From assembly GCF_009695745.1 (NCBI RefSeq), contig NZ_VUNH01000006.1, forward strand, positions 1 to 64,000: 64,000 bases of DNA, in the 5' to 3' direction. A model generated the notes under the pieces. The model made no database searches and was not told where the DNA came from. It saw only the letters and a list, made by a program, of their open reading frames with translations. This stretch comes from Pyramidobacter porci. GTDB taxonomy: Bacteria; Synergistota; Synergistia; Synergistales; Dethiosulfovibrionaceae. The position numbers and the translations under genes are program-made. Positions 25,406 to 42,686 of this stretch are shown piece after piece. How positions within the stretch are numbered: position 1 is the first letter of the stretch; the number at the start of each line of letters is the position of its first letter.

Positions 25406-25417
<12 letters not shown>

Positions 25418-25442
25418 TGTGATACCTAGACCGAAAGGTCTA
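25406..25442. other. Left attachment site (attL) of the integrated element
   Basis: TTACCTCCACCA (25406-25417, the tRNA 3' end) is repeated at 42675-42686. Just inside lies GATACCTAGACCGA, with the inverted motif CTAGACC-GAAA-GGTCTA (25426-25442), matched at the right end by GATACTAGACCGA and CTAGACC...GGTCTAG. Confidence 0.65.
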
Positions 25443-25450
25443 ACAAATAG

Positions 25451-25480
25451 AAGGCCTTCCTGAAGAGGAAGGCCTTTTTT
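25451..25480 (+). terminator. Rho-independent terminator after tRNA-Ala
   Basis: AAGGCCTTCC pairs perfectly with GGAAGGCCTT around TGAAGA, followed by TTTT. It lies inside the element. Confidence 0.88.
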
Positions 25481-25496
25481 GTATCTCGATGCAAAC

Positions 25497-25755
25497 AGGC
25501 GGGACGCGGTGGATACCTCGGAGCATCCAGAGCCGTGAGTGTCATGTACAGGAGAAAAAATCTATTTCGTCTCGGCTCAGTGGCGTGTCATGAGAAAAAA
25601 GAACTCAAAAAAGGTTACCCTAGTGCCCCTCGCAAGTCTGTGACAGCATTTGCGAAGGGTGGCCGGGGTGACCTTTTTGTAAACGCGCACGGATGCGATA
25701 GGCGGGACGCGGGGGATACGCGGATACATTCAGAACCGTCCAGGTAATGTATAAT
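25497..25755. repeat. Two imperfect direct repeats and a long hairpin
   Basis: AGGCGGGACGCGGTGGATAC at about 25498 recurs as AGGCGGGACGCGGGGGATAC at about 25700, each followed by related sequence (CATCCAGAGCCGT / CATTCAGAACCGT). Between them, 25611-25679 folds into a long two-part hairpin (AAGGTTACCC with GGGGTGACCTTT; CCCTCGCAA with TTGCGAAGGG) ending in five T. The short open frame across this region looks non-coding. Confidence 0.55.
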
Positions 25756-25820
25756 AGACACGACAGTCATGCCAGCATATCGACGCGGGACACTGGGACA
25801 CTCAGAAAGGAATGAACACA

Positions 25821-26192
25821 GTGAAACACCAGCCTGCTTATATAAGAACGATACTGAGCTTCAGAACAGGAAGCAGCCAGTGCTATAAAGTGAGTTTGCT
25901 CGATAAAGCGCCCGTGATAACCGAGGGTGTCAAGGACATGGCCGAGCTTTGCGAGGCATTTTGGCTCGTGGACAAGATCTGCACGGTACAGCAAACGGAA
26001 CCTTACAGCAAAGAGTATTTCCAGGTGTGGCGTCTCATCATGAAAGAAAACCATCATGCAACGCTTATCTGCGACGACGGCAACGGCAAGATCATCTCGC
26101 AGGAAGAAATAAACTACACCGATTTCCCGCTGTCCGAGGGAATCACGCTTTACATGACGAACGACGTTATCATGCTGCCGACAGAATACTAG
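25821..26192 (+). CDS. DUF6876 family protein, copy 1
   Basis: A 123-aa soluble protein. The pattern FRTGSSQCYKV, then PVITEGVKDMAELCEAFWLVDKI, FQVW, ATLICDDGNGKII, YTDFPL and a C-terminal LPTEY matches the DUF6876 family found in phages and integrative elements. GTG 25821 is chosen because AAAGG lies 9 nt upstream, it aligns with the start of copy 2 (VKH versus MKH) and gives identical length. Function unknown. Confidence 0.8.
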   Translation: MKHQPAYIRTILSFRTGSSQCYKVSLLDKAPVITEGVKDMAELCEAFWLVDKICTVQQTEPYSKEYFQVWRLIMKENHHATLICDDGNGKIISQEEINYTDFPLSEGITLYMTNDVIMLPTEY

Positions 26193-26309
26193 TGCAATCG
26201 CAGTCAGCAATCAGTCCATGGAAGTTCGCGGCATGAGCATCACAGGAAACTGCCGCGCACGGCAAAACCTATCGTAACAAGCAGCCGAACAGCAAAACAA
26301 CAAACAGAG

Positions 26310-26344
26310 AGCGAGCTATCCCGAAATGGGATAGCTCGCTTTTT
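26310..26344 (+). terminator. Rho-independent terminator between the two DUF6876 genes
   Basis: Perfect 13-bp stem AGCGAGCTATCCC/GGGATAGCTCGCT with a GAAAT loop and TTTT, placed just before the ribosome site of copy 2. Confidence 0.88.
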
Positions 26345-26367
26345 CTATTCAAAAAGGAGGAATAACC

Positions 26368-26739
26368 ATGAAGCACAGCGCAGAAGACATCAAATCAGCA
26401 TTAGCCATGCAGACAGGGACCTCTCATTATTGGAAAGTCTGCCCGTTCAAAAACGCTCCGGTCATCACCGACGGAGTGAAAGTCATGATCGACATGTGCG
26501 AAGCCTATTGGCTCGTCAATCATATCGCATCCTATCAAATGGAAGAGAAAATCCGCAACGAAGAATTTCAGGTCTGGACACTGGAACGCCGTCAGGACGA
26601 CACGGCGACGCTGACCTGCGACGACGGCAACGGGCATGTGCTGTTGAGCGACGCGATCAGCTATACCGATTTCCCGCTGCCCGAGGGAATCAAACTCTAT
26701 CTGGACAACGGCGTCCTGCTGCTGCCCAGTGAATACTAG
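26368..26739 (+). CDS. DUF6876 family protein, copy 2
   Basis: A 123-aa paralogue of the gene at 25821. It shares TGTSHYWKV, PVITDGVKVMIDMCEAYWLV, EFQVWTL, ATLTCDDGNG, YTDFPLPEGIKLYL and the terminal LLLPSEY. ATG 26368 follows AAAAAGGAGG. The two copies are clearly related but diverged, so they have probably been kept for separate roles. No catalytic motif was recognised. Confidence 0.82.
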   Translation: MKHSAEDIKSALAMQTGTSHYWKVCPFKNAPVITDGVKVMIDMCEAYWLVNHIASYQMEEKIRNEEFQVWTLERRQDDTATLTCDDGNGHVLLSDAISYTDFPLPEGIKLYLDNGVLLLPSEY

Positions 26740-26791
26740 ATAAATGCAGTCACAGTCAAACCCAGCTTAAACTATCAAGGAGGAAAATACC

Positions 26792-27484
26792 ATGCAGACC
26801 GAGAAAATGCTTGTAAGAACAGAAGCAGTCTATTCAGACGACAGGACGCGCAGATATCTTCTGCACCGCGAGTGGGATGTGAAAAAGCCCAAGGCCCTCA
26901 TCATCATGACCAATCCAAGCACAGCCGGAACCATTGCCCTCGATTTTACGACCATGTACATCCTCAACAATATCACGGCGCTCGGCTACGGTTCCGTAAC
27001 CACAGCAAACCTTGTCTCGAAAATCACGCTGAGACTCAGCGTCAAAGACGATATCGAAGCTGAGGACGAGAACTTCGACCAGATCGTCAAAGCCGCGCAG
27101 AAAGCCGACAAAGTCATCATTGCGTGGGGACGAATCGGCGAGACCAGCGTCAAAGTCAGAGCCGTGCAGGACAAACTGCTTGCCAGACTGGAACCGTTTA
27201 AGGAAAAGCTGTGCGAAATCGGCAACGAGAGCGGAGAGTCAGGATTCCATCCACTTGCGCCTCAGATTCGCTCGCACTGGATATTGAACCCGTATGAAAT
27301 TCCAGAGCCGATCGCATCCAAGGAAGAAAAGCAGCCTAAGCCCAAAGTAAAACGCAAGTCGAAATCACAGGAAGCTAAAGCCGCAGATACCGACGATCCC
27401 TGCAAGAGCGAACAGGACCGCAGTATCCCAAGTGTCCCTGATAACATTACCGATCAGCAACCGCAGAAGGAGGCGGCAAAGTGA
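26792..27484 (+). CDS. DUF1643 domain protein
   Basis: A 230-aa protein. Residues about 15-170 match DUF1643: RTRRYLLHREWD, PKALIIMTNPSTAGTIALD, GYGSVTTANLVSKI, DKVIIAWGR and FHPLAPQIRSHWILNPYEI. The last 60 residues are low-complexity and charged (KPKVKRKSKSQEAKAAD). The family occurs on mobile elements; function unknown. AAGGAGG precedes the ATG, and its stop overlaps the GTG of the next gene. Confidence 0.82.
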   Translation: MQTEKMLVRTEAVYSDDRTRRYLLHREWDVKKPKALIIMTNPSTAGTIALDFTTMYILNNITALGYGSVTTANLVSKITLRLSVKDDIEAEDENFDQIVKAAQKADKVIIAWGRIGETSVKVRAVQDKLLARLEPFKEKLCEIGNESGESGFHPLAPQIRSHWILNPYEIPEPIASKEEKQPKPKVKRKSKSQEAKAADTDDPCKSEQDRSIPSVPDNITDQQPQKEAAK

Positions 27485-27831
27485 TTGTCATCAGCAAAAC
27501 AGCAGATATCGAACAGCAAAATCTCAAAGCCAAGCTGCCTTATGAAGTCTATGATGAAATCGAAAGACTCAGTAATCAAATTGACGAATTATATGGGGAA
27601 TCGAGGGGCACTAACAGCGATGGAGGAATCATCATCGTAGCCGAGCGAAAATCCGACTTGAAAACTATCAAATCGCGATATGCCAGCCTGAATGAATCCG
27701 ACTGTGAGGGTGAGGACACTATAACGACACCGAAAGGCGACTACGTGAATCAGCTCTATCTCAACAACAACGAGTTCGGAGTGAACGTTATCATGCCGGT
27801 GCGTTTTATAAGGAAGGCGACGAAGGAATGA
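27481..27831 (+). CDS. Hypothetical protein of the element
   Basis: A 116-aa acidic soluble protein starting at GTG 27481, overlapping the previous stop by 4 nt with AAGGAGG just upstream. Residues 15-30 (AKLPYEVYDEIERLSNQIDE) look helical. No family was recognised. Its stop overlaps the ATG of the next small gene (ATGA), so the four genes from 26792 to 28053 form one translationally coupled operon. Confidence 0.65.
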   Translation: MIVISKTADIEQQNLKAKLPYEVYDEIERLSNQIDELYGESRGTNSDGGIIIVAERKSDLKTIKSRYASLNESDCEGEDTITTPKGDYVNQLYLNNNEFGVNVIMPVRFIRKATKE

Positions 27832-27914
27832 TCTACCTCATGGCGGGATTAGCGGCAAGCCTTGGCGTGCTCATCGCCATGGAAGACGAAAAGGAAGAGA
27901 ACGACGATGATTAG
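27828..27914 (+). CDS. 28-aa small membrane protein
   Basis: ATG 27828 overlaps the previous TGA. The product begins MIYLMAGLAASLGVLIAM and ends in an acidic tail EDEKEENDDD: one hydrophobic helix plus a charged end. AAGGA lies upstream. Similar tiny hydrophobic proteins are frequent in phage-like operons; no function can be given. Confidence 0.5.
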   Translation: MIYLMAGLAASLGVLIAMEDEKEENDDD

Positions 27915-28053
27915 CGCATTGACAGCGGCAGCCACGGGAGCGGCAGTGAAACTCTTTACCAAAGGCGTCATGCTCGGAATCGCCATTTACACGGCGCATA
28001 AGACGAACGGCAAAGGCGGCAAGGAGGGGCGGGACCGTCCCAGGCGCAAATAG
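27907..28053 (+). CDS. 48-aa small membrane protein with basic tail
   Basis: ATG 27907 lies inside the end of the previous small ORF (8-nt overlap), with GGAAGAG upstream. The product MISALTAAATGAAVKLFTKG continues with VMLGIAIYTAHKT and ends in a basic tail GRDRPRRK. One membrane helix is likely. Unknown function. Confidence 0.5.
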   Translation: MISALTAAATGAAVKLFTKGVMLGIAIYTAHKTNGKGGKEGRDRPRRK

Positions 28054-28067
28054 ATTGGATTACAGCT

Positions 28068-28103
28068 ATAGCGTCCGGCAGAAATGTCGGGCGCTATTTT
28101 TTT
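28068..28103 (+). terminator. Rho-independent terminator of the DUF1643 operon
   Basis: ATAGCGTCCGGC pairs with GTCGGGCGCTAT (two G-U pairs) and is followed by seven T. Confidence 0.85.
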
Positions 28104-28358
28104 CTATGAATGAATCTGAAAAATATAAAATTGTCGTTCGGACGATAAAATGCATTTTGAGTCATGTTGATTTGTTGTCTTTTTGTTGCATTGATAATCA
28201 AATATAAAATATACTGACTGGAAAAGAAGGCGGCTTTTTGAAAAAGAGATGAAATGCCATTGAAAAAAGATAACAAAAAGTAGTCATATGTAAACAGCGT
28301 TAATTTTATCGCGTTGTGGATAAGTTTTGCCATTAGCGATATTATCAAGAAGAAAAGA
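28104..28358. other. AT-rich gap without a gene
   Basis: Low-GC stretch before the promoter at 28359. A 140-codon open frame on the minus strand crosses it, but it has no ribosome site, unlikely composition and overlaps the structured RNA region, so it is not called. Confidence 0.5.
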
Positions 28359-28387
28359 TTGACAGGAAAGGTCAGACATGTTATCAT
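28359..28387 (+). promoter_or_regulatory. Strong sigma-70 promoter for the noncoding region
   Basis: Perfect -35 TTGACA (28359-28364), exactly 17 nt, and -10 TATCAT (28382-28387). Transcription would start at about 28394, immediately before the left arm of the long-range inverted repeat. Confidence 0.75.
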
Positions 28388-28393
28388 TCGCTC

Positions 28394-29010
28394 ATTCAAA
28401 ACGCAGACGGCCGCCTCCACAGGAGGTGTGAAAAGGCCAACTACGTATTGATTAAATTTTTTAAAGGGCAACCCGCCGAGATTAGTTCCGCTCTTGAACG
28501 CAGCACTGCAATGCATGAGTCGGACCTAAGACCGAAAGTGATTTCAGCGGAGACCCGTATTATATGAACAGGGCAACCCGCCGAGATTCGTCCCGCTTTC
28601 GGACGCAGCAGAGCGTAAGACGGACCTAATGCCGGAATTGATTTCAGCGGGGACCCACATTATATGAGCAGGGCACCCCTGGCAATCCCTTTCAACGCTT
28701 GAACGCTGTGTAACCGGTTGCGCAGGCAGAACTCAATAACCGACAAGGCGTCAGGCTGCGGTGCTCAGGAAATTGACAAGGACCACTTGCTAAAGCCGTT
28801 TCTTAGACGTCCGCCGCGTTGCAGCGCGTAAGCCGATCACACTGATACAGGTCATAAGAACCTGGACGGCTTTCAGCGGTCCGTATAATAATAGCAGTCT
28901 ATGGAGTGACGGAACCTCGCTAGTCGAGACCGCGCTAAAGAACCACGCACCATAGAGAAAATGAAAGACATATTATATATAATCTACGGCCTCCGTCTGC
29001 GTTTTGAGTA
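28394..29010 (+). ncRNA. Candidate large structured RNA, about 615 nt
   Basis: The region starts at a strong promoter and its ends pair perfectly over 15 bp (TCAAAACGCAGACGG at 28396-28410 with its complement at 28993-29007). Inside are many local helices: CCTCC/GGAGG (28414-28426), CGGTT/AACCG (28714-28740), AAAGCCGT/ACGGCTTT (28793-28873), CAGGT/ACCTG (28848-28864), TCTATGG/CCATAGA (28898-28956) and CTCG/CGAG (about 28916-28927). No frame is coding. Size and a closing stem recall the large ornate RNA classes of phages, but no known class was recognised. It could instead be the primase leader or a replication origin. Confidence 0.55.
28466..28895 (+). repeat. Tandem repeat units inside the structured region
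   Basis: Two units of 105 and 100 bp (28466-28570, 28571-28670) each begin GGGCAACCCGCCGAGATT and end TGATTTCAGCGG(A/G)GACCC then ATTATATGA(A/G)CAG. In each, CCGCCGAGAT can pair with the TTTCAGCGG end, closing the unit, and a GGACCTAA(G/T)(A/G)CC stem-loop lies inside. A third, expanded unit starts GGGCACCCC at 28671 and ends TTTCAGCGGTCCGTATAATAATAGCAG-like at about 28895. Confidence 0.75.
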
Positions 29011-29035
29011 ATTTTATAGATGGAGGAGTACAAAT

Positions 29036-31156
29036 ATGTACCACGATTCCGATTTTTCAGCTGACGAAAGAAACCGCTTGTGCAATCGCTGCCCGAAGTT
29101 CAAAGAGCTCTGCGAGCAGCAAAAGCAGGGTGAGCTCGACAAGAAACTGGCCAAGCTTGTTATAATGATGCTGGTCAGCGCCGGGAGATACCCGCTGGCT
29201 ATCGAGTTCGCCAAAAAGGCTCACGACAAGAAGCTGGCGCCTAAGTACTACAGATACTACCAAGGCCTGATCTTCAACAAAGAGTCGGCCCTTGTCGATG
29301 GTTTCGACTGCACGGACTTTGGCTGTACGGCAGAGGAGATCAAAAAATGCTTCTCACGTCAAGAGCTCGAAAGGCTGTACCCAAACGAGGACTTCTCGTT
29401 TCGAAAGGACAAAGAGACGGACGAACCTTTGAACTCGCCTCTGGAAATGCTCAGGTTCTTCAGGAGCGAACTGCCCGAGATCGGCATTTTCACCCGCTGG
29501 AACAAGGCCAACAACGTCTGGTGTCCTGACACGGGGAACTTCAACCCTAATCTTTATCTGGATTATGTGATGAGTTCTCTCCCGATCGTCTTGACTGAAG
29601 ACAATCCGCCGCAGCTCAGTGTGTACTGCAACGGAATTTGGAAGCAGCAGGATCTGCATTTGCGTGAAATCAATCAACTGCTCAGGATACACTACAATCG
29701 TGCCGCTCCCCACATGTGGAAGGGGTTCCCAAAGGAACTATGGCAAATGCTTCCGCAGGAATCCCCTTCATGCACGACCCTGAAGAGCGGTAAAAAATAC
29801 GTGAATGTACAGAACGGCCTTGTCTATTTCATGGACGGCGAACTGTATAAACGCTCTCATACTGACGAGGTGTACACGACCCGTCAGGTTCCAGTGCCGA
29901 TCAAGGAGGACTGCGAATGTCCGAACTTCGAATACTACCTTCAAAGCACGTTCCGTAACGACGAGGACCTCATCAAGGTCGTACAGGAAATGTGCGGCTA
30001 TCTCTTGCTTGACACCTGCAAGGCTGAAAAGATATTTTATCTCATAGGCCCGGGCGGCAACGGTAAGTCAGTGCTTTTGGGTGTTTTGGAAGCGCTTTTG
30101 GGGCACGCACAAGGCACTATCGGCTTGTCGCTGGAGGAAATCAACACCAATAAATTTGCCCGCTTCAAGTTGATTGGAAAGTTCGCCAACCTCAGCAATG
30201 AGAGCGAGGCCAGCGGCAAAGACGCTGTGAACCTCAAAGTTTCCAGGGCTCTTGCAAGCGGAAACTCCGTTTGGGTTGAGGATAAAGGGAAGCCAGGCTT
30301 CATGGCAAAGCTGACTGCGAAGCAAGTTTATTGCATGAACGAGATTATGCCCGTCAAAAACGGCACCTCTCAAGGAAACCTGCGCAGAGCGCTAATCATA
30401 CCTTTTGAGCAGGTATTCTCGTCGAATCCGGCAGAAGGCGAGCTGGCCAAGGACGTCAACCTTCTGGACAAGCTCCTTGGTGAGCTGCCCGCAATCCTCA
30501 GATGGGCGCTCGAAGGAGCCATGCGCCTGATTGAGAACAACTTCGAATTCTCGCATTCGGACAAGGTCGAGGAGTATTTCAAAATCTATGCGAACGCGGT
30601 CGATGAGCTGCAGATGAAGCGATTCGTCGAGGAGAAGATGATCCGCACCACCGGCAAGCCGACTAGCACAACTGAAATTTATAATGCGCATAGGCTCTGG
30701 TGCGAACAAAACGGCATAGAACTGCCGGACAAGGTTTCCGGAAACAAGTACTGGGATGCTCTTAAAAGCGCACTAAAAAGCCTCGGCGAGAAGAAAATCG
30801 AGAAGGTCGGCTGTAACGGAAACAGGGTCCATCTGAAAGGCTGGCGCTTGCGCACCGAAGACGATATCGACATCGATATCGAAATCGGCGAGGATACCAA
30901 GGAGGCTTCGACTCTCGACCAGATCATGGCTGAGATGCAGAAGTTGAGCCCCGAGAGGCAGCAAAGATACCTTGACAAACTGCGTACCCGCAATGCCGAA
31001 AAGGCCGCCAAAAAGGCGCAGTCGGACGAGGAAGTCGCCGAGGCCGAATCCAAGCCTAAAAAGGCCCAAAAGGCCGCCAAAAAGGCGCAGTCTGACGAGG
31101 AAGTCGATGAGGCCGAATCCCAGTCCAAGTCCAAGAAGGCCAAAAAGGTAAAGTAG
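29036..31156 (+). CDS. P4-type primase/helicase-like replication protein
   Basis: A 706-aa protein. The N-terminus has a Cys-rich start (NRLCNRCPKFKELC). The middle and C-terminal parts match the phage/plasmid primase P4 family: Walker A LIGPGGNGKSVLLGVLEALLG near 338, KFANLSNESEASG, KQVYCMNEIMPVKNG and RRALIIPFEQVF. The last 70 residues are low complexity with two KKAQSDEEV repeats. It probably starts replication of the excised element as a superfamily 3 helicase; a primase catalytic domain was not clearly seen. GGAGGAG precedes ATG 29036, and a TATAAT lies at 28978-28983. Confidence 0.85.
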   Translation: MYHDSDFSADERNRLCNRCPKFKELCEQQKQGELDKKLAKLVIMMLVSAGRYPLAIEFAKKAHDKKLAPKYYRYYQGLIFNKESALVDGFDCTDFGCTAEEIKKCFSRQELERLYPNEDFSFRKDKETDEPLNSPLEMLRFFRSELPEIGIFTRWNKANNVWCPDTGNFNPNLYLDYVMSSLPIVLTEDNPPQLSVYCNGIWKQQDLHLREINQLLRIHYNRAAPHMWKGFPKELWQMLPQESPSCTTLKSGKKYVNVQNGLVYFMDGELYKRSHTDEVYTTRQVPVPIKEDCECPNFEYYLQSTFRNDEDLIKVVQEMCGYLLLDTCKAEKIFYLIGPGGNGKSVLLGVLEALLGHAQGTIGLSLEEINTNKFARFKLIGKFANLSNESEASGKDAVNLKVSRALASGNSVWVEDKGKPGFMAKLTAKQVYCMNEIMPVKNGTSQGNLRRALIIPFEQVFSSNPAEGELAKDVNLLDKLLGELPAILRWALEGAMRLIENNFEFSHSDKVEEYFKIYANAVDELQMKRFVEEKMIRTTGKPTSTTEIYNAHRLWCEQNGIELPDKVSGNKYWDALKSALKSLGEKKIEKVGCNGNRVHLKGWRLRTEDDIDIDIEIGEDTKEASTLDQIMAEMQKLSPERQQRYLDKLRTRNAEKAAKKAQSDEEVAEAESKPKKAQKAAKKAQSDEEVDEAESQSKSKKAKKVK

Positions 31157-31173
31157 CCGCGGGATAATATATA

Positions 31174-31204
31174 GGAGGGCATGGGGCGTGACTCCATGCC
31201 CTCC
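31174..31204 (+). terminator. Terminator-like hairpin after the primase gene
   Basis: GGAGGGCATGG/CCATGCCCTCC, 11-bp perfect stem followed by TATTTC. Confidence 0.6.
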
Positions 31205-31237
31205 TATTTCCAGTGATACGGATTGAGGTGCCCGTGC

Positions 31238-31444
31238 ATGAAGATTGAGCCAGTGAAGACCAAAAAAATAAAAAGGAGCTCTTTGGAAGATTACGAAAGC
31301 ATTAAAATCAAAGATCTCCGACAGATGATGCGAGAAAACGACGGTTCAGAAAGTGCCAGAACTTTGAACGATCTGACACCTGCAATCAACCTGCTGTACT
31401 TCATTCATCAGCGTCTGATGGACGAGAACGAGGAAGAGGATTAG
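31238..31444 (+). CDS. 68-aa hypothetical protein
   Basis: A charged small protein starting MKIEPVKTKKIKRSSLEDYE at ATG 31238 (GAGG site 9 nt upstream), ending in DENEEED. Its stop lies 4 nt before the next gene, so it is co-transcribed with the recombinase. It could be a small accessory or directionality factor; no homology was recognised. Confidence 0.5.
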   Translation: MKIEPVKTKKIKRSSLEDYESIKIKDLRQMMRENDGSESARTLNDLTPAINLLYFIHQRLMDENEEED

Positions 31445-31448
31445 GGCG

Positions 31449-32975
31449 ATGGACCGTCAAGAGAAGAAAAAGCTCCTTGCCAAGTTTGGAAAAATACCGC
31501 TCGACAAGAGAGCCGTCATCTACGCCAGATATTCGACGGATGTTCAAACCCCTGAAAGTATCGAACGCCAGGTTCAGCTCTGCAGCGATTACGCGCAGGA
31601 AAACGGCCTGACGGTTCCCAAGGCTTATTGCGACAAAGCGAAAAGCGGCACTCAGACAACTACCCGCTACAACTATAACCAAATGCTGGAAGACAGCGCC
31701 GAAGGACTGTTCTCGAAGATCATCGTATTCAAACTCGACCGTTTTTCTCGGAATCTAAGAGATTTCTTAAACGATCAGTACACATTAAATGAAAACGGCG
31801 TACAAATTCTATCGACACTGGAAATTTTGCCCGACGGCATATCAGGAAAGCTCGTCAAGTATAGCCTCATAATTGGCGCGGAACTGTACTCGGATTCGGT
31901 AGCGGATCATACGTCCTCGGAAATGTACCGCAATGCCAGGCAGGGCAACTATAACGGCGGAAAAATCCCACTCGGCTACAGAGCAGTAGAGGCTGAAGGC
32001 CGCAAGAAGTATGTCATAGATGACAAGGAGTCCGAGATTGCCGCCTTCATCTTTGAGCAGTATGCCCAGGGAAAATCCTACAGCGACCTTGTGAAACTGC
32101 TTGACCAGCGGGGCTGGAGGACGAAAAACGGCGACCGGTTCAGTACCGGCAGTTTCAACAGCATCTTCAATAACCGTATTTATATCGGCGAGTATGGCTA
32201 CGGCAAAGGCACAAGCAAGGCCGTCGTTACTAAGATACCAGAGCTGCAGATCGTGCCTGACAAGATTTTTGAGAAAGTCCAGAAAAGAATGGCCCAGAAC
32301 AAGGTCCTCGCCGGACGCCGGAGGGCCAAACGCGGATACATCCTCTCAGGATTTGTCAAATGTGGCGTATGCGACAGTAATATGCACCACGAGCCGATCA
32401 GGTCAAAGGGTAAAGCAGCGTATGATTGCTACCGTTGCCCGAATACAAAGAAAAATGACGAGCACGGGGAAAAGCTGTGCGACAATCTCAGAATCAGAAG
32501 GAAGTATCTGGAACGGTATGTCATGGACAAGATCTTCCGTGATCTGTTCGGCAACGCTTCGCTTCAGGACGTGACCGAGAGACTGAATGCGCTCATACTC
32601 GAACAGGCTCAGGACAGTGAACGTGAGCTTGCGGAAAAGGAAAAGCTGCTGAAAAAGAACCAGCAGGCCTTAAAGCGTCTGAAGACACAGAAAGCTGACG
32701 GAAAGCACGGCCTTGACTGGGATGATGAGGTCGAAAAAACTAATGCGAATATCAGGGAGCTCAGGGAGGCAATAAGTAAGCTCGAAAACAAACGCGACAG
32801 CATGACCTGCAAGCCGAACGATGTTATGAGGCTGATTGGACTTATCCGAAGCGCGGAAATCAAGAAACTTCAAGCGCCTGAGATTTACGAGTTTATGGAA
32901 GCCTATCTCGATTCAGTGACAGTCGATAAGGAACATGTGCGAGTCAAGCTGAATCTCAACAAGATCGTGGAGTAG
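31449..32975 (+). CDS. Large serine recombinase, copy A
   Basis: A 508-aa recombinase. Resolvase domain: VIYARYSTD with catalytic Ser29, VQLCSDYAQENGL and IIVFKLDRFSRNLRDF. The recombinase domain follows (GGKIPLGYRAVEAEGRKKYV, FNSIFNNRIYIGEYGYG), then a zinc ribbon (CGVCDSNMHH...CPNTKKNDEHGEKLC) and a coiled coil (about 380-450). Such enzymes integrate and excise elements between short att sites. It starts 4 nt after the 68-aa gene. Confidence 0.92.
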   Translation: MDRQEKKKLLAKFGKIPLDKRAVIYARYSTDVQTPESIERQVQLCSDYAQENGLTVPKAYCDKAKSGTQTTTRYNYNQMLEDSAEGLFSKIIVFKLDRFSRNLRDFLNDQYTLNENGVQILSTLEILPDGISGKLVKYSLIIGAELYSDSVADHTSSEMYRNARQGNYNGGKIPLGYRAVEAEGRKKYVIDDKESEIAAFIFEQYAQGKSYSDLVKLLDQRGWRTKNGDRFSTGSFNSIFNNRIYIGEYGYGKGTSKAVVTKIPELQIVPDKIFEKVQKRMAQNKVLAGRRRAKRGYILSGFVKCGVCDSNMHHEPIRSKGKAAYDCYRCPNTKKNDEHGEKLCDNLRIRRKYLERYVMDKIFRDLFGNASLQDVTERLNALILEQAQDSERELAEKEKLLKKNQQALKRLKTQKADGKHGLDWDDEVEKTNANIRELREAISKLENKRDSMTCKPNDVMRLIGLIRSAEIKKLQAPEIYEFMEAYLDSVTVDKEHVRVKLNLNKIVE

Positions 32976-33041
32976 GGGCGCGTCTGTATCGAGAGGGGCC
33001 TCCTAGGTCTCACAGGGCTCGTTCCTGAGCTGCATACTAAC

Positions 33042-33078
33042 ACAGCCGGATATGTCCGATATGGGCATATCCGGCTGT
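33042..33078 (+). terminator. Terminator-like hairpin after recombinase A
   Basis: ACAGCCGGATATG pairs perfectly with CATATCCGGCTGT (13 bp). The T-run is weak. Confidence 0.6.
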
Positions 33079-33579
33079 CGTGTATGAAAGAGTGATACGG
33101 GGGACACCTTGTGATATGAGCGCAGAGTGAACGTAATGAGTGCAGGTATTTCTATCTTGAGATCAATATATATTCAAAAATAATCAATTACAACCCGATT
33201 TTCGCCCTGCGGTCGAAAATCAGGACCCGCTTGACGCTGTTAGATTATGGCGGGCGTAACAGGAAGCATGGGGAAGAAGATGTTGGTGATAAATTATCCT
33301 CCCAGTACACCCAGTACTGATTTGTGAGTAAGCCGAATCACATAGCTAGAATACACACATTAGAATATAGCGGCGAATGTGTTTTTAGTGTATTTAGTAA
33401 GTGTGGGAATATAACTAAAGAGTTTTTGTCTAGAAAATGAGGTGGCATAATAATATGAGAAAAGAATATCAGGGGAAGTGAAAATATATTGGGTGACTGT
33501 ATGTAATGAGAGCATAAGTCAATGCCAGAGGCATAATTGTTGAAACTGAAAGATTTATAGAAGTGAGGGCGGGAAGGCA
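33079..33579. other. Gap at the left edge of the low-GC cassette
   Basis: No gene was seen. It contains the hairpin repeat at 33194-33224 and then AT-rich DNA up to the methyltransferase. An 80-codon minus-strand frame in it has no ribosome site and is rejected. Confidence 0.5.
33194..33224. repeat. Left flanking hairpin repeat of the defence cassette
   Basis: GATTTTC...GAAAATC hairpin with conserved loop bases CCC and CGGT. It is 26/31 identical to 40470-40500 on the other side of the low-GC cassette. Confidence 0.65.
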
Positions 33580-35196
33580 ATGAGGGTGGCTGATTTTTTC
33601 TGCGGTGGGGGAGGTTTTTCAGAAGGCTTCCGCCAAGCGGGATTTGAAATCGTATTTGCCGTCGACAAATGGGAGCCGGCAGTCAAAACATATAGAGGTA
33701 ATAAGCCGGGAGTAAATGTGATTCAGGATGATGTTATCCGTATCGCCAATCTTCCGGATGAAGAATTTGAAGCATTGGTGCCAGATTCTGAAGTCATCAT
33801 TGGTTCACCCCCATGTCAGTCCTTTTCGCACTCGAACAAGTCAGGAACTGCGGACAAGTCGATTGGCATCCAGTTGATTGAAGCATACCTGAAAATTGTC
33901 GCTCGAAAGAAGTTTAAACAAGGATCATGCTTAAAATACTGGGTGTTGGAGAATGTTCCGGCAGTCAAGGATTACATCAAAGAGGAATACACTGCTGCAG
34001 ACTTTGAACTAGACGGTGATTTCGTTTTACGGCCTCATGATGGGGCATCAGGAAAATACAATGCGAAATACTACGGTGCTCCAACAAATAGGGAGCGTTA
34101 TCTATGTGGGGAGTTCCCTGAACCAATAAAAACGAAAAGTAATCAAGACGTAACGACTTTGCGGCAAGTCCTTGATTCACTAGGTGACCCATTGAGGATG
34201 GATGATGCCCCAATAACAGACATCAATTATCCGAACCTTACTTTGGAATCAAATCAAGTTACCGACCAGCATTACATTTATGAACTGGCAGAGTTTGAGT
34301 ACAAAACTGCAAAGCGTCTGAAACAAGACAAAGGCTATATGGGAAAGATGTCTTTCCCAGAAAACCTTGATAAACCTGCGCGAACCGTCATGGCGACTAT
34401 GACTGCAAGTGCTAGAGAAGCCATGATCTTGGGATATGGTGTTGGGCGATATCGATTGCCAACAGTCAGAGAAACGGCATGTATGATGAGCTTCCCAATA
34501 GATTTTTGGTTCTATGGGGAATCAAAGGGCGTTAAGCACACCCTTGTCGGAAATGCTGTTCCGCCAAAACTCTCATATGCAGTCGCAGTAGCAATTGCAG
34601 CAGCAGAAAATGAGCCTGTTCCCAAAGAGTACATCCCGATCCAGCACGAACAGAATAATGAACAGCTTCAATTTTTTAATTTGAACGGTGCCAAATTTGA
34701 AATCCGGAAAGAACAACCCAAAAAGAAAACGGCAAAATTCAAATATCATATTCCATACTTGATTTATTCAGCATACCGGGTCGAATTAACAAATTACCAT
34801 TCGAGCTTTGAGTCTGGTGCGTTTAAGTGGAATTCAGAAATTCACTATAGTCAAGGAAAAGATAAAGCGAAAGTACTAACGCCCCGTATAACAAAAAGAG
34901 ATATTCCAAGTGTACTCTTTGTAAAAATCGAGTCATTTATTCATGAAATATCTCGCAGTTTGCCAACAACAAATCGAAGATTTCAGAAGCTATATTGCAT
35001 GACAACAGAGGATCGAAAAGCCGCAGAGAGACTTGGCCCATATGAACTGCTAGAGAGTATCAGGCAATTCATAGATGACACTATTCCAAAAGAGGACCAG
35101 AGCAAGGAAGTTGAAGTGATCCACGGTACTAATCTGCCGTTTGCCATCCTGGTTGGATACTACACCATGTCAAGGATAGTAAACAAAATGCAGTAG
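33580..35196 (+). CDS. DNA (cytosine-5-)-methyltransferase
   Basis: A 538-aa C5 methyltransferase. Motif I ADFFCGGGGFSEGFRQAG is at 4-21, motif IV GSPPCQSFSHSN (catalytic Cys near 79), motif VI WVLENVPAV near 125, motif VIII region APTNRERYLCGEF and the C-terminal motif X VGNAVPPKLSYAVA near 330. About 170 extra residues after motif X have no recognised domain and may be fused for contact with partner proteins. First gene of a low-GC operon with a ParB-like protein, a helicase, DUF3883 and Vsr. The target sequence is unknown. Confidence 0.9.
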   Translation: MRVADFFCGGGGFSEGFRQAGFEIVFAVDKWEPAVKTYRGNKPGVNVIQDDVIRIANLPDEEFEALVPDSEVIIGSPPCQSFSHSNKSGTADKSIGIQLIEAYLKIVARKKFKQGSCLKYWVLENVPAVKDYIKEEYTAADFELDGDFVLRPHDGASGKYNAKYYGAPTNRERYLCGEFPEPIKTKSNQDVTTLRQVLDSLGDPLRMDDAPITDINYPNLTLESNQVTDQHYIYELAEFEYKTAKRLKQDKGYMGKMSFPENLDKPARTVMATMTASAREAMILGYGVGRYRLPTVRETACMMSFPIDFWFYGESKGVKHTLVGNAVPPKLSYAVAVAIAAAENEPVPKEYIPIQHEQNNEQLQFFNLNGAKFEIRKEQPKKKTAKFKYHIPYLIYSAYRVELTNYHSSFESGAFKWNSEIHYSQGKDKAKVLTPRITKRDIPSVLFVKIESFIHEISRSLPTTNRRFQKLYCMTTEDRKAAERLGPYELLESIRQFIDDTIPKEDQSKEVEVIHGTNLPFAILVGYYTMSRIVNKMQ

Positions 35197-35254
35197 CAGA
35201 AAAACGAAATGAACGATTTGCAGTCGACAATAGTCCAGGAAAGGAATGAAAACA

Positions 35255-36568
35255 ATGCCTGTAATTAACAGAGATTTCCCGCTTTCTGCTGAGGCAAGAA
35301 AGGCGCATCTCAAAGCGATATTGGAAGATAGTAAACCTATCAGTTCAGTTAAAGTCCCTGGCCATGGTTCTCAAAACGTATATAGAATACCACTTCAGTT
35401 TTTGTCATATAACCCATATAACACTCGGTTTTTGTCACAGGCGAAAACGTGGCAGAAACGGCTTGGCCGTCGACTTAGCAACGAAAATCCTCGGGATGTG
35501 GAGAAAATAGAGGAGTTCTTATGGTCATATAAAAAAGACAAGAATGAAAACACGATCAATTCACTGATCAAGGAAGGACAGCTTCAACCAGGAGTTGTAA
35601 CCATTGATGGCTTGATTCTTGCGGGTAACCGTAGATTTAGATTGCTGAATGAAATCGATAGGAATCCGGATAAGTACAATACACAGCATGCAAATATCGA
35701 AGGGTTAAAGTGCTTTGAGGCGGCAATACTTGGCACAGTACTTACGGAAAAAGAGATTGTTAGATATGAGTCGTTTTACCAATACGGGGCAGAAGATAAA
35801 GTCGATTACGACCCTATTCAAAAGTATATTGCTGCACATGACCAGAAAGACTATGGATTTGAATTGAGCGAGATAGCTGCTAATTTCGCTGCATTAACAA
35901 ACGGTGATATAAAAATCGTTCAAAGATGGTTAGATGTTTATGCATTGATGGCGGAGTACTTGGAATATATTGGTGAGCCAGAAATCTATACTGCATTATT
36001 TGGGAATGAGGAGTCTTTCCTAAACTTACTAGACACAAAAAAGAGTCTGGAACGAGGAAGGACAAAGAATGAAAGTTGGGACTATGACGATATGGATATT
36101 GCCGATTTACAGCTGAGGTATTTTGACTATATCCGGGTGGGAAAGAGTACTCATGATTTTAGAATTTTCAAAAAAATATTCTTGAACAAGAGTAGGTGGA
36201 AAGATTTCAACAAAAGCGTCGATGAAACTGTTGGGAAAGCATCGGAAGAAATATTTAGTATTGATGAATACCGCAGCAAGTATCCTGATGAAACCGAAGA
36301 TACTATTTCGGAGATACGAAATAATGATTTTCGTGAAAAAGCCGAAAAGCCGTTGAATCAGCTTTATGGCACTGAAAACGCGTATTTAGTGAGCAAAGCA
36401 GACGAAGAAACGCCATATAAAACTGCACAACAGGCTTATCAGAAACTCGAAAAACTTTCAACTTTTCTAGATCTTGGTTTAGACAGGATATCTGATCTTG
36501 ATAAATTGTTAGATAAGGTCAGAGAAATCCAGAAGTTGGTTGGAAAAATCAAAATGAAAATTGATTAG
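35255..36568 (+). CDS. ParB/Srx-like domain protein of the defence cassette
   Basis: A 437-aa soluble protein. Residues about 50-140 show a ParB/sulfiredoxin-type fold signature: YRIPLQFLSYNPYNTRF, then GQLQPGVVTIDGLILAGNRR with the GNRR element typical of ParB-like nucleotide-binding or nuclease proteins. The rest is helical and charged. Start ATG 35255 is preferred over 35246 because AAAGGA stands 9 nt upstream. ParB-like proteins in modification loci bind CTP/ATP or DNA; its exact role is unknown. Confidence 0.7.
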   Translation: MPVINRDFPLSAEARKAHLKAILEDSKPISSVKVPGHGSQNVYRIPLQFLSYNPYNTRFLSQAKTWQKRLGRRLSNENPRDVEKIEEFLWSYKKDKNENTINSLIKEGQLQPGVVTIDGLILAGNRRFRLLNEIDRNPDKYNTQHANIEGLKCFEAAILGTVLTEKEIVRYESFYQYGAEDKVDYDPIQKYIAAHDQKDYGFELSEIAANFAALTNGDIKIVQRWLDVYALMAEYLEYIGEPEIYTALFGNEESFLNLLDTKKSLERGRTKNESWDYDDMDIADLQLRYFDYIRVGKSTHDFRIFKKIFLNKSRWKDFNKSVDETVGKASEEIFSIDEYRSKYPDETEDTISEIRNNDFREKAEKPLNQLYGTENAYLVSKADEETPYKTAQQAYQKLEKLSTFLDLGLDRISDLDKLLDKVREIQKLVGKIKMKID

Positions 36569-36577
36569 GGACATGAG

Positions 36578-38521
36578 ATGAGAATAAAAATCGGTATTCT
36601 TGGAGATAACGAATCGTTTGTAATAACCCCTATTGATTTTAACGTGACGGATATAAGAGGGATTAAAGTCTATTTGAAGAATTTGAACGGTGGGCATGTG
36701 GATAATGACAAAATAATCATTCCCATCGTCAATGTCGATGTCCTAGACCTATATCATAAGACCGTTGAATTGTTTGAAGGAAGGTTTAAATGTCATATTG
36801 AGAAAGATGCCGATGCTGGTTCATTGCTAGGCAATGCAGTAAACGAGGAAGAACGATTCCGGGCTTTTTCAGCTAAAGCATATGCTATTAGGAATAATAA
36901 TATTGATAGCAGCGAATTGACTGCTTTTTTGGACTGTGTTAAACAGGATAGCTTTATTCGAACCCTGAAGCCGTTTCAAATCTTATCTGCGTATCATCTT
37001 GCGTTTTCTCACAACGCTTGCAATTTCTCAGTCCCTGGTGCGGGAAAAACATCCACAGTATTAGCGGCTTATGCTTATTTAGCTAGCTGCAATGAAATCG
37101 AAAAACTATTGGTAGTTGGACCACTTGCTTCATTTTTAGCATGGAAAAAAGAGTATTTCTACTGTTTCGGAACCGCCCCAAAAGTGCTTGAAATCATGGG
37201 GAATACCCCTGACAAGCGTATTGAAAAAGAACTAATGCGTTCAAGCATTGATTTAGATCTGATTCTGGTTAGCTATGGGAGTGTTAGCCGTCAACTTGAT
37301 AAATTATTGTTCTTCCTCAGAAACAACAGGACCATGGTAGTTCTCGATGAAGCCCATAGAATAAAAAACGTCGAAGACGGGGTTCAGAGCAATGCAACAC
37401 TTCAGCTATCTCCTTTTGCGAGGTCAAGAGCGGTTTTGACGGGGACTCCTGCACCGAACAGTTATGTTGATTTGTTTAACCTCTATAAGTTCATCTGGCC
37501 ATCACATAATATAATCGGGTTTTCAGTTCCTCAACTTGCAAACATGAGCAAGCGTGAAGGCGATCCTAGGATTAGTGAATTGATTTCTAGGATTTCTCCT
37601 TTCTATATTCGAATTAGGAAAAGCGACTTGGGGCTACCTGAACCGTGGTTTCTTCCCCCAAAGAGTGTTCAAATGTCTCCTATTCAAGATAGGATTTACG
37701 ATGCTATTTCCAGAATGGCTGTTGGAAGACTAGAAGATGGAGTATCGTCTCCCACAAATAGACTATCGGCGATCATTAGGTTGAGACAAGCTGCTTCGAA
37801 CCCAGCTTTACTAAATCGCGGGCTTGATGATTATTATGATGGATTAGATGAATCTGTTCCAAGAGTGGCACTTGATAGTAATCTCAATGTAAGTGATGAG
37901 ATCATGGATCTTATAAGGACTTACAAAGAGACAGAAATCCCCAGCAAATTCATTGAGGCCGGAGAACTGGCTAAGAGAGTTATAGCAGAAGGCGGCAAGC
38001 TAGTGATTTGGTGTGAGTTTGTTGGCACGTGTGATGACCTAAGCGATTACCTAAGTAAGTCTGGCGTCGAGAATAGGATCCTTTATGGAAAAACTGATTA
38101 CCTAGACCGCGAAAGAATAATAAATGAATTTACTGACAAAGAGAAGCCGTCCGCCTTCAATGTCGTTATAGCAAATCCTCACGCAGTTGGTGAATCGATT
38201 TCACTCCATGTAACTTGTCACAATGCTTTATATCTTGAGCAGAGCTTCAACGCTGGAACCTATATGCAGTCAAAGGATAGAATTCATCGTGTTGGCTTAC
38301 TGCAGAGTGATATAACACGGTATTATTACATTCATTCTGCAAATACTATCGATGGTGTTGTGTTTGAACGTGTCAACACAAAAGAGAAAAGAATGCTTGA
38401 GCTAATCGAGAGTCAGGATATACCGCTGATTGCGAATAATCAAGACTTCCTTGAAGACAATGAAGACGATATCAAGGCAATTATACGAGGGTATTATGAG
38501 TACCGATCTAAACATATTTGA
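36578..38521 (+). CDS. SNF2-family helicase/translocase
   Basis: A 647-aa superfamily 2 ATPase. Motif I SVPGAGKTSTVLAAYAYL is near 150, motif Ia LLVVGPLASFLAWKKE, motif II VLDEAHRIKN near 257, motif III RAVLTGTPAPNSYVDLF near 285, motif V ANPHAVGESISLH and motif VI YMQSKDRIHRVGLLQ near 565. This is the Snf2 pattern of double-stranded DNA translocases found in restriction and phage-defence loci. About 145 N-terminal residues have no recognised domain. It overlaps the next gene by 26 nt. Confidence 0.88.
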   Translation: MRIKIGILGDNESFVITPIDFNVTDIRGIKVYLKNLNGGHVDNDKIIIPIVNVDVLDLYHKTVELFEGRFKCHIEKDADAGSLLGNAVNEEERFRAFSAKAYAIRNNNIDSSELTAFLDCVKQDSFIRTLKPFQILSAYHLAFSHNACNFSVPGAGKTSTVLAAYAYLASCNEIEKLLVVGPLASFLAWKKEYFYCFGTAPKVLEIMGNTPDKRIEKELMRSSIDLDLILVSYGSVSRQLDKLLFFLRNNRTMVVLDEAHRIKNVEDGVQSNATLQLSPFARSRAVLTGTPAPNSYVDLFNLYKFIWPSHNIIGFSVPQLANMSKREGDPRISELISRISPFYIRIRKSDLGLPEPWFLPPKSVQMSPIQDRIYDAISRMAVGRLEDGVSSPTNRLSAIIRLRQAASNPALLNRGLDDYYDGLDESVPRVALDSNLNVSDEIMDLIRTYKETEIPSKFIEAGELAKRVIAEGGKLVIWCEFVGTCDDLSDYLSKSGVENRILYGKTDYLDRERIINEFTDKEKPSAFNVVIANPHAVGESISLHVTCHNALYLEQSFNAGTYMQSKDRIHRVGLLQSDITRYYYIHSANTIDGVVFERVNTKEKRMLELIESQDIPLIANNQDFLEDNEDDIKAIIRGYYEYRSKHI

Positions 38522-39395
38522 TTGTCTGCTAGATCCTTCAGAAATGTTCACCTTTTTTCAAAAAATCGGAACAGTTTTGAAGAATGATCGAGATATTGCT
38601 TCTGAACAGGTACGCGGACAGGCATTACACAACACATTATTGCTGCTGCAGAATACTGCAATGATTCAGCGGCATGATGATGAGTATATAAAGCTCTCAG
38701 ATTGCCAAACGTATGAATCTTTTTATTCTGCTCTGATGGCGAGCCTAAAGGATACATATGCCAATGAAGTCGCTACGATCATAAACTGTGATAAACACTA
38801 TGATGAAGCAAAGAACCAGTTTTTCATTTATGTAAATGACATTCCCCTGAGATATATGGGGCTAGCAATGCTGTTAGAACAGTCAGGCGAATTTGAAAGA
38901 ATCAGGAATAGAGAATACTTCATCGGAATCGATAACTACCGGAAGGTAATAAAGAAAAAGCCGTTAGTCACAATTGAAGAGTTGCAAAAAAAGCTTCGTC
39001 GTGACATTGAGTATGGAGAGCAAGCGGAACAGTTTGCATGGAAGTATGAGGTAACCAGGCTAAGGCAAGCAGGAATCAACAAGGAACCATTAAGTATTTC
39101 TAGTGTTGATGTTATGGCTGGTTATGATATGATTTCTTATGAAAGCAAATCATCCAATGGTTATGACAGATTTATTGAAGTGAAAGCGATTTCACATTCC
39201 GGTTTTTATTGGTCAAGAAATGAATATGAGACCGCAAAACTCAAAGCTGAACAGTATTATTTGTATCTTGTGGATTTGAAAAGAATCAGCGATTCTGGAT
39301 ATACGCCAGAAATAATACAGAACCCAGCAATAATTATAATGGAAAATGGTGGATGGTTTGTAGAAGCAGAATCGTATCACATCAAGCAAGTGTGA
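38496..39395 (+). CDS. DUF3883 domain protein (PD-(D/E)XK-like)
   Basis: A 299-aa protein starting MSTDLNIFDCLLD at ATG 38496 (GAGG upstream). The C-terminal third is DUF3883: GYDMISYESKSSNGYDRFIEVKA near 208-230, with the D...E-x-K pattern of PD-(D/E)XK nucleases, then FYWSRNEYETAKLKAEQYYL. It is a likely DNA-cleaving effector, or a DNA-end binder if the site is degenerate. It overlaps the helicase gene, so the two are probably made in fixed ratio. Confidence 0.75.
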   Translation: MSTDLNIFDCLLDPSEMFTFFQKIGTVLKNDRDIASEQVRGQALHNTLLLLQNTAMIQRHDDEYIKLSDCQTYESFYSALMASLKDTYANEVATIINCDKHYDEAKNQFFIYVNDIPLRYMGLAMLLEQSGEFERIRNREYFIGIDNYRKVIKKKPLVTIEELQKKLRRDIEYGEQAEQFAWKYEVTRLRQAGINKEPLSISSVDVMAGYDMISYESKSSNGYDRFIEVKAISHSGFYWSRNEYETAKLKAEQYYLYLVDLKRISDSGYTPEIIQNPAIIIMENGGWFVEAESYHIKQV

Positions 39396-39415
39396 TTTGT
39401 ATAGGAGGCTCTCCT

Positions 39416-39835
39416 ATGAAACACCGGAAGCTATCAACGACACCAGAAATTTCTAAGCGTATGTCAAATGTCCATCTGAAGGAGAGCAAGGCAGAAATCA
39501 CGCTGGCTAAGGAACTCTGGAAAAGAGGATTTCGATATCGTAAGAATTATAGAAAACTTCCTGGTTCTCCAGACATCGCCATCCTTAAACACAATATCGC
39601 AGTCTTTGTTGACGGGGAATTCTGGCATGGAAAAGACTGGGAAGACAAAAAGAATCGATTAAAAAACAATAGGTTATACTGGATAGAGAAAATTGAAGAA
39701 AATATGGCAAGAGATAGAAAAAACGATGTCTTGCTTATGGGAAAGGGGTGGCTCCCTATCCATTTTTGGGAAATGGAAGTCATTACAGATTTATCTTCTT
39801 GCATTGATATAATTGTTAATTTAGTAAGTGAGTAG
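39416..39835 (+). CDS. vsr: Very short patch repair (Vsr) endonuclease
   Basis: A 139-aa Vsr protein: MSNVHLKESKAEITLAKELW, RYRKNYRKLPGSPDIAIL (catalytic Asp in PD) and VDGEFWHGKDW, with the IPVHFWE-like PIHFWEME end. Vsr nicks T:G mismatches that arise when 5-methylcytosine is deaminated, so it is the normal companion of a C5 methyltransferase and protects the host genome from mutation. A close relative can serve as a restriction nuclease. ATG 39416 follows AGGAGG. Confidence 0.9.
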   Translation: MKHRKLSTTPEISKRMSNVHLKESKAEITLAKELWKRGFRYRKNYRKLPGSPDIAILKHNIAVFVDGEFWHGKDWEDKKNRLKNNRLYWIEKIEENMARDRKNDVLLMGKGWLPIHFWEMEVITDLSSCIDIIVNLVSE

Positions 39836-39905
39836 ATTTGTCATAATGAATATGTCAGTTATGGTAAGTCTTCGATGTGGTAATTAAAGTACGAGGAGGG
39901 GTAGG

Positions 39906-40229
39906 ATGAATATCCCAAAGTTGAATAAAAGCGAAAGGGATCGAGAGTATAATCTTTACAATACGGTCCAGCGCGAGGCTGTTGTTAAAGCATTTCTGTT
40001 TGAAGGTATGCATCATAGACAGATAGATTCTAAGATCTTAGGGCTTGACAGCGATTATACTCACGGGTTCCAGTCGATGGGGATCCTACATTATCTGGGG
40101 CTGGACAGGCATTTTAAAGGTCTTTTCAGAGATATGTCAGTTAGCGATGCAATCAATGAGTTAAAATCGACCAAAGACTCGTCTTATTTCGATTTGATAA
40201 CGATTTTAGAGGGGCATGTCATTCGCTAA
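39906..40229 (+). CDS. 107-aa orphan protein of the defence cassette
   Basis: A soluble 107-aa protein with QREAVVKAFLFEGMHHRQID, LGLDSDYTHGFQSMGILHYL and HFKGLFRDMSVSDAINEL. The pattern suggests a helical DNA-binding domain but no family was recognised. ATG 39906 has a strong ACGAGGAGG site. It is 70 bp after vsr and shares its low GC. Confidence 0.6.
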   Translation: MNIPKLNKSERDREYNLYNTVQREAVVKAFLFEGMHHRQIDSKILGLDSDYTHGFQSMGILHYLGLDRHFKGLFRDMSVSDAINELKSTKDSSYFDLITILEGHVIR

Positions 40230-40258
40230 TATTTATTATGGAACGATTATTGAATTTA

Positions 40259-40329
40259 ACCTCCCAAGCCACCCTAAATAGTCGATTCTATACAGAGATT
40301 TAGCTAGGGTAGCTAGGGTGACCTTTTTG
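40259..40329 (+). terminator. Long terminator hairpin at the cassette end
   Basis: The left arm from ACCTCCCAAGCCACCCTAAAT can pair with ATTTAGCTAGGGT...GGGTGACC, and five T follow. The right arm and tail (GGGTGACCTTTTTGT) are identical to those of the hairpin at 25611-25679. Confidence 0.6.
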
Positions 40330-40425
40330 TATTTGATGATAAGCTGATGACAGGCTCAGACTAGACTCTATAGGTATCATACCTATCAACTAATAATAAA
40401 AATAAATATTCAAATTGTTTGGTAT

Positions 40426-40702
40426 CCCAACTTAGTCCTTCGGGACTAAGTTGGGGCCCACTGTAAGAACCTGATTTTCTCCCGACGGTTGAAAATCAGG
40501 TCTTTTTTATATTGATGGATACCATTGGAATAAAGTCGTTTTCTGTGTCCCAGAGCTCCCAGAGATCATAGATACAGTAAGAGTGAGGCATTGGGATTCA
40601 ATCAATAAATACAAAAAATCAAAATACAACTCACAACCCCAGTTTTTTCCTACGGAAAAATACTGTGGCCCCTTACGCTGAAAGCAGATTTGCTTTCAGC
40701 GT
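40426..40702. repeat. Array of four hairpins
   Basis: CCCAACTTAGTCC/GGGACTAAGTTGGG (40426-40455), the repeat GATTTTC/GAAAATC with TTTTTT tail (40470-40507), CAGTTTTTTCC/GGAAAAATACTG (40640-40665) and ACGCTGAAAGC/GCTTTCAGCGT with a TGTTTTTA tail (40675-40710). Each is bounded by short C- and G-rich blocks (AACCC, GGNCCC). The second is the partner of 33194-33224. No gene lies in 40230-40851. Confidence 0.65.
40470..40500. repeat. Right flanking hairpin repeat of the defence cassette
   Basis: Matches 33194-33224 at 26 of 31 positions, in direct orientation. It also has a T-run on its right and can act as a terminator. Confidence 0.65.
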
Positions 40703-40851
40703 TGTTTTTATTGGATTGATGATGATGATTTCAGATTCTGTGTCCCGCGCCTCCCATCTCCAAATCCGTAAAGTCAAAAAATGGACTGGATCTTATTATT
40801 ATGATCAAAATATGATCGACCATATTTTCTTATAGAATCGGGAGGAATTTC

Positions 40852-42465: not shown

Positions 42466-42623
42466 TCGAAAATAGTTCCCGATGCTCCCTAGCGCATAGA
42501 TACAATTTTGACGAATCGATTAAACGTTGACGTGCGCAAAATAAACTCGTATCGAGCCTCCCTCGGCTCCCGCTAAAGATTCCCATCAAGCAGTTGCAGG
42601 CAAGGCTGCCCTGATCCGCCTGA

Positions 42624-42686
42624 GATACTAGACCGACAGATAACTATTTGGTCTAGGGAGCACATAGGGATGGGTTACCTCCACCA
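42624..42686. other. Right attachment site (attR) of the element
   Basis: GATACTAGACCGA (42624-42636), an inverted pair CTAGACC...GGTCTAG (42628-42656), then TTACCTCCACCA (42675-42686), the same 12 bp as the tRNA-Ala 3' end. The remaining DNA 42466-42623 shows no gene. Confidence 0.65.

Follow-up and report, generated by a model that had tools for sequence, protein, structure and literature searches.

The question raised by this locus is whether a non-coding stretch of about 0.6 kb, located directly upstream of a helicase gene in the 64-kb window (the whole stretch of DNA analysed here), is a functional RNA and, if so, what it does. The features described originally were confirmed, and the sequence is best read as coding for a large structured RNA that has a fixed 5' end and a closing stem: a candidate of ~617 nt on the plus strand (28394-29010), non-coding, with a fold z-score of -4.0 to -4.9 and without a match in Rfam. 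We consider it best described as a putative new orphan structured RNA heading a cassette-like replication operon.

The island and its helicase

The element is located in an island of ~17.3 kb (25406-42686) inserted in a tRNA-Ala(GGC) gene, with a 12-bp att core, TTACCTCCACCA, present on the plus strand at 25406-25417, as the 3' end of the tRNA gene, and again at 42675-42686. The similarity of the left flank to two same-genus genomes ends at 25417, the final base of tRNA-Ala, and that of the right flank to same-genus genomes begins at 42675; in the empty site of two same-genus genomes, the left and right flanks overlap by this 12-bp core. The gene order of the island is two DUF6876 genes, DUF1643, a small protein (27481), the candidate RNA, the helicase, a 73-aa ORF, a large serine recombinase (31449-32975, plus strand), the cargo, and a second large serine recombinase adjoining the right attachment site (40852-42465, plus strand). 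The two DUF6876 genes are in tandem at the left end (25812-26739), and the 73-aa ORF has no relative in the host's order. The cargo (33580-39835) is a restriction/defence-like region of low GC content (~0.39), encoding a C5 methyltransferase, a ParB-like protein, an SNF2 helicase related to the ZorD/DrmD/DpdE models, a NOV_C protein, and a Vsr-type nuclease. Among the island proteins scanned, none was a phage structural protein or a relaxase, and there is no tRNA array at the island, only the single tRNA-Ala gene at the insertion point.

Large serine recombinases, a Cch/Cch2-type helicase, and DUF1643 occur together in this island, which is SCC-like in this respect. It resembles the pattern-2 ccr complex of SCCmec (CCPol-MP-Cch2-ccrC), in which a Cch2/SaPI5-type helicase is followed by one or more large serine recombinases, together with DUF1643 (PMC7581432, PMC10581047). 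In contrast to SCCmec, the insertion is not at the 3' end of rlmH, the att core being the 3' end of tRNA-Ala, and no CCPol/MP primase is present. In the SCC ccr complex, primase genes precede Cch2 (PMC7581432, PMC10581047), whereas here a candidate structured RNA is in the upstream position.

The helicase gene (29036-31156, plus strand) encodes a D5/SaPI5-type superfamily 3 helicase (DUF5906), which groups with the SaPI5 primase-helicase in phmmer (E 1.8e-9), profile (E 3e-56), and Foldseek (best hit) searches. No primase domain was detected in it, as the Pfam, PHROGs, and PDB sequence searches show the helicase part only, although the model of the first 170 residues is poor (pLDDT ~60 or below for the most part) and a divergent domain may be present there. 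Its N-terminus aligns immediately after the Prim-Pol domain of a relative from the same order (G152). The annotated relatives in the order have a Prim-Pol, Toprim, or NrS-1-like polymerase, either fused or directly upstream, one upstream gene being unassigned, and the candidate RNA occupies the place upstream of the helicase where the primase gene normally sits. The nearest sister element, that of G152, displays the order DUF1643, 27481 homologue, Prim-Pol-helicase, recombinase; it carries the fused Prim-Pol and no such RNA, showing that the presence of the RNA varies within this family of islands. Furthermore, a few viral relatives of the helicase are also devoid of an obvious upstream primase gene and, therefore, the absence of a primase does not by itself imply an RNA substitute.

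The helicase-then-recombinase order is repeated in other relatives. An apparently decayed sister element (L406, G039:C16:36500-43500) was also observed beside a 27481 homologue, its helicase match being split in two pieces and its recombinase containing an internal stop. In the island itself, the helicase gene is followed immediately by a 14-bp perfect hairpin (31171-31207, plus strand), at the place of the SaPI/SCC origins; this hairpin is a candidate terminator or origin feature.

Promoter, closing stem, and tandem units

A candidate sigma-70-type promoter, TTGACA-17-TATCAT (28359-28387, plus strand), matches the consensus at 11 of 12 positions, with a TG ahead of the -10 box and a predicted start at ~28394, as originally proposed. 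Sites of at least 11/12 number just five across the window, this one included, all on the plus strand. The spacing between this promoter and the terminal inverted repeat is ~8 nt. Further upstream, an intrinsic-terminator-like hairpin with a T-tract (28068-28097, plus strand) closes the preceding operon and, therefore, the promoter would open a new transcription unit. No terminator-like signal was found between the RNA and the helicase gene, the Shine-Dalgarno-like purine stretch of which (29021-29027, plus strand) lies ~14 nt past the closing stem. As the original prediction had stated, the element contains no coding frame, its longest stop-free runs being 57 codons on the plus strand and 72 codons on the minus strand.

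The two ends of the element form an inverted repeat (28396-28415 and 28988-29007, plus strand coordinates) of 20 nt, 90% complementary, which includes the 15-bp perfect core already recognized in the original prediction. This core is far beyond chance: none of 20,000 shuffles of both 30-nt ends reached 15 nt, the longest being 11. The pairing probability of the stem is ~1.0, and adding positions 28394-28395 extends it to 17 consecutive pairs. In the genome, the exact arms are found at this locus only and are thus no multicopy element, and a miniature transposable element was rejected. A 5' hairpin, CGCCTCCACAGGAGGTG, is located at 28412-28428 (plus strand), and an AT-rich palindrome, ATTATATATAAT, at 28972-28983, near the 3' end of the RNA.

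Between the arms, the two tandem units of about 100 bp described previously were recovered at 28465-28569 and 28570-28669 (plus strand), with an identity of 81-88%. Unit 1 displays an outer helix, CCGC-GAGATT/GATTTC-GCGG, and a long inner hairpin. They are followed on the same strand by an expanded third unit (28670-28897), composed of an AGGGCA box, an insertion of ~130 nt, and a hairpin module (28811-28879) ending in TTTCAGCGG, and then by a local hairpin, CTATGG...CCATAG (28898-28956). Three boxes each occur three times in the element: AGGGCA (28465, 28570, and 28670), TTTCAGCGG (28542, 28642, and 28871), and ATTATAT (28559, 28659, and 28972). Similarly, the pattern CCGCC(48-75)TTTCAGCGG has three occurrences on the plus strand of the 64 kb, all of them inside the element (28473-28550, 28578-28650, and 28811-28879). 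The third unit is thus real in that the boxes and the module recur, but its likeness to the other two is weak.

The plus strand of the whole element folds with z-scores of -4.0 and -4.35, or -4.9 when 50 nt of downstream sequence are added, compared with -2.7 for the minus strand and -2.5 to +1.0 for nearby coding sequence. Without the arms, the core is mildly more stable than shuffles (z just -1.7), indicating that most of the fold excess is owed to the closing stem. The many local helices announced originally are a weaker feature than that wording implied. In the consensus fold of units 1 and 2, 24 pairs are unchanged, two are compensatory (C-G to U-A and U-A to C-G), and none is broken; its energy (z -2.97) was matched by 1 of 500 column shuffles. 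Nevertheless, two compensatory pairs by themselves are common in column shuffles (86/500) and the two sequences scored are the same ones that yielded the fold, so that this conservation must be interpreted as moderate evidence. The inner fold of the RNA, as modelled, is ambiguous: the full-length ensemble favours the outer helix of unit 2 together with the inner hairpin of unit 1, instead of both parts of both units, leaving unit 1 without a favoured outer helix.

Searches for relatives and comparison with known RNAs

The search against Rfam, including GOLLD, ROOL, OLE, and HEARO, retrieved no match at the gathering score and none credible at E<=5. Therefore, membership of any known Rfam RNA was rejected, HEARO and OLE among them; the HNH/IscB-type gene that adjoins HEARO RNAs has no counterpart here either. 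The GOLLD/ROOL relationship suggested in the original prediction finds no support from the covariance models. In blastn searches, the phage and plasmid collections returned nothing, and 201 relatives returned only two matches, of 24 nt and 31 nt, one of them intergenic and the other inside a long protein-coding frame, which we judged to be chance. The 24-nt match (L003:1501-1524) agrees at 23 of 24 positions with the inner hairpin of unit 1 and comes from a different genome of the order, where it lies between genes in a region of ~700 bp; it is probably due to chance (E 0.001 per genome, with 201 searched). A covariance model of the unit (R1) was searched in 183 genomes of the host's order, in viral loci, and in helicase-relative loci. 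In the 183 genomes it matched the element in the window only, and it gave nothing credible in the loci from the viral motif scan or those of the helicase relatives, the best chance hit scoring 17.7 bits, compared with 120-130 bits for units 1 and 2 themselves. Searches with exact motif patterns recovered no credible homologue in viral contigs; in genome contigs, among the matches listed, all read as chance, some of them having been rescored with R1. The element is an orphan within all collections searched. No homologue having been found, the comparison that bears on base pairing is the internal one between units 1 and 2, in place of cross-species covariation, the standard proof of an RNA.

Other known types of regulatory RNA were considered. 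An antisense regulator of island genes was rejected, no complementarity of at least 12 nt being found outside the RNA itself. A type III toxin-antitoxin RNA consists of tandem repeats upstream of a ToxN-type toxin, whereas the downstream gene here encodes a helicase. The IIR transcript of the PLE satellites of Vibrio is similar in setting, as a non-coding transcript flanked by inverted repeats within an island that replicates (PMC7567579). The PLE RNA differs in having antisense matches to island gene leaders, for which the present element has no counterpart of at least 12 nt. The P4 RNA is a short molecule that works through complementarity, unlike this 0.6-kb candidate with its closing stem, for which no long complementarity was found. 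Nevertheless, the regulatory RNAs of P4 and phi-R73, named in PMC7567579, are comparable as regulatory RNAs of elements with a D5/P4-type replication protein.

A proposed leader of the replication operon and its alternatives

Our preferred explanation, to which we assign a probability of roughly one half, is a structured leader RNA of ~617 nt, possibly processed, made with the replication-initiator helicase and acting in the replication of the island. Transcription would start at ~28394, the RNA being the first product of the island replication operon; its two ends would close into a stem of ~17 bp, with the three related hairpin modules folding inside. With no terminator in its way, and with the ribosome site starting 14 nt after the stem, the polymerase would then continue into the helicase gene. 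The leader may be cut at the closing stem, giving a stable RNA, and this RNA would set how much of the replication-initiator helicase is made or how active it is, and with it the replication of the island. We infer the transcript and its processing from these features, and the replication role from its position and from two precedents: the PLE IIR transcript, which is an abundant RNA between inverted repeats in a replicating satellite (PMC7567579), and a lncRNA of Lactobacillus salivarius, the deletion of which lowers the megaplasmid copy number (PMC5643018). A long primase leader had been among the original alternatives. The leader part of that proposal has support no weaker than that for an independent RNA, given the Shine-Dalgarno sequence of the helicase 14 nt after the RNA, but the gene downstream encodes a helicase in which no primase domain was detected.

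A rather doubtful alternative is that the element is a large ornate RNA in its own right, of the GOLLD/ROOL type, which would accumulate as a stable particle acting in trans, with the helicase having its own translation start and sharing only the promoter region. The length of 617 nt is in the same size class (ROOL env-120 is 659 nt; PMC12286853), and the stem joining the ends, the several hairpins, and the mobile-element setting are also alike, with precedents in PLE and phages (PMC7567579). In contrast to GOLLD and ROOL, the element has no Rfam match at E<=5 and no tRNA array, it contains internal tandem modules, and it leads into a helicase gene without a terminator; the failure to find homologues also weighs against this explanation. 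ROOL is characterized by an octameric RNA nanocage with kissing loops, and GOLLD by a phage or prophage setting near tRNA genes; the present island adjoins one tRNA-Ala gene, and the genes scanned in it included none for phage structural proteins. The element may work like GOLLD/ROOL, although membership of these families is unsupported.

The idea of a DNA replication origin, in which the helicase would bind the units and the DNA would melt at the AT-rich stretches, seems to us unlikely. It would agree with the adjoining SaPI5-type initiator helicase, the AT-rich palindrome, and the repeated boxes. However, short iterons are not enriched in 28040-28460 or in 28394-29035, the differences between the units fit base pairing, and the promoter is placed exactly at the stem. 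Moreover, the origins of SaPI and SCCmec are built on short iterons downstream of the helicase (PMC7581432), whereas the element is upstream of it. A SaPI-type iteron origin was rejected on these grounds, and the iteron-like origin mentioned in the original prediction is weakened by the same observations and by the compensatory changes between the units.

That there is no functional RNA at all, the element being a non-coding spacer that underwent duplication and whose inverted repeat is due to chance or belongs to the DNA level (e.g., a miniature transposable element or a decayed gene), we hold to be very unlikely. The single copy, the lack of detected homologues, and the mildly significant fold of the core are in line with it, but the arms are not multicopy, no coding remnant is present, the stem is far beyond chance, and the module fold is kept between the units.

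Finally, a pre-primer RNA would remain on its template near 28970-29010 and prime island replication in place of the missing primase domain. ColE1 RNA II, a structured transcript beside a replication function and similar in length to this RNA, serves here as a works-like comparison, with no homology claimed. The support for a pre-primer is positional: the helicase is devoid of the Prim-Pol, Toprim, or NrS-1-like module of its annotated relatives in the order, the RNA is in that position, and its 3' end is AT-rich. Against it, there is no direct sign of R-loop formation, the host DnaG could prime, the SaPI primase is not essential for replication (PMC7581432), and some viral relatives have no obvious upstream primase gene either, making a pre-primer possible in principle and highly improbable in our estimation. 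We likewise see very little chance that a large structured RNA of a new class took over from the primase in a cassette-chromosome-like element, starting replication with the D5-type helicase as a primer or as an origin RNA scaffold.

If the transcript exists, it would be a large structured RNA that belongs to no Rfam family, located in an SCC-like island at the position expected for a primase. Since the biochemistry of the helicase and the recombinases is already understood from SaPI and SCCmec, the question becomes testable. Such a transcript would connect large ornate RNAs with a specific step, either the initiation of replication or the control of copy number.
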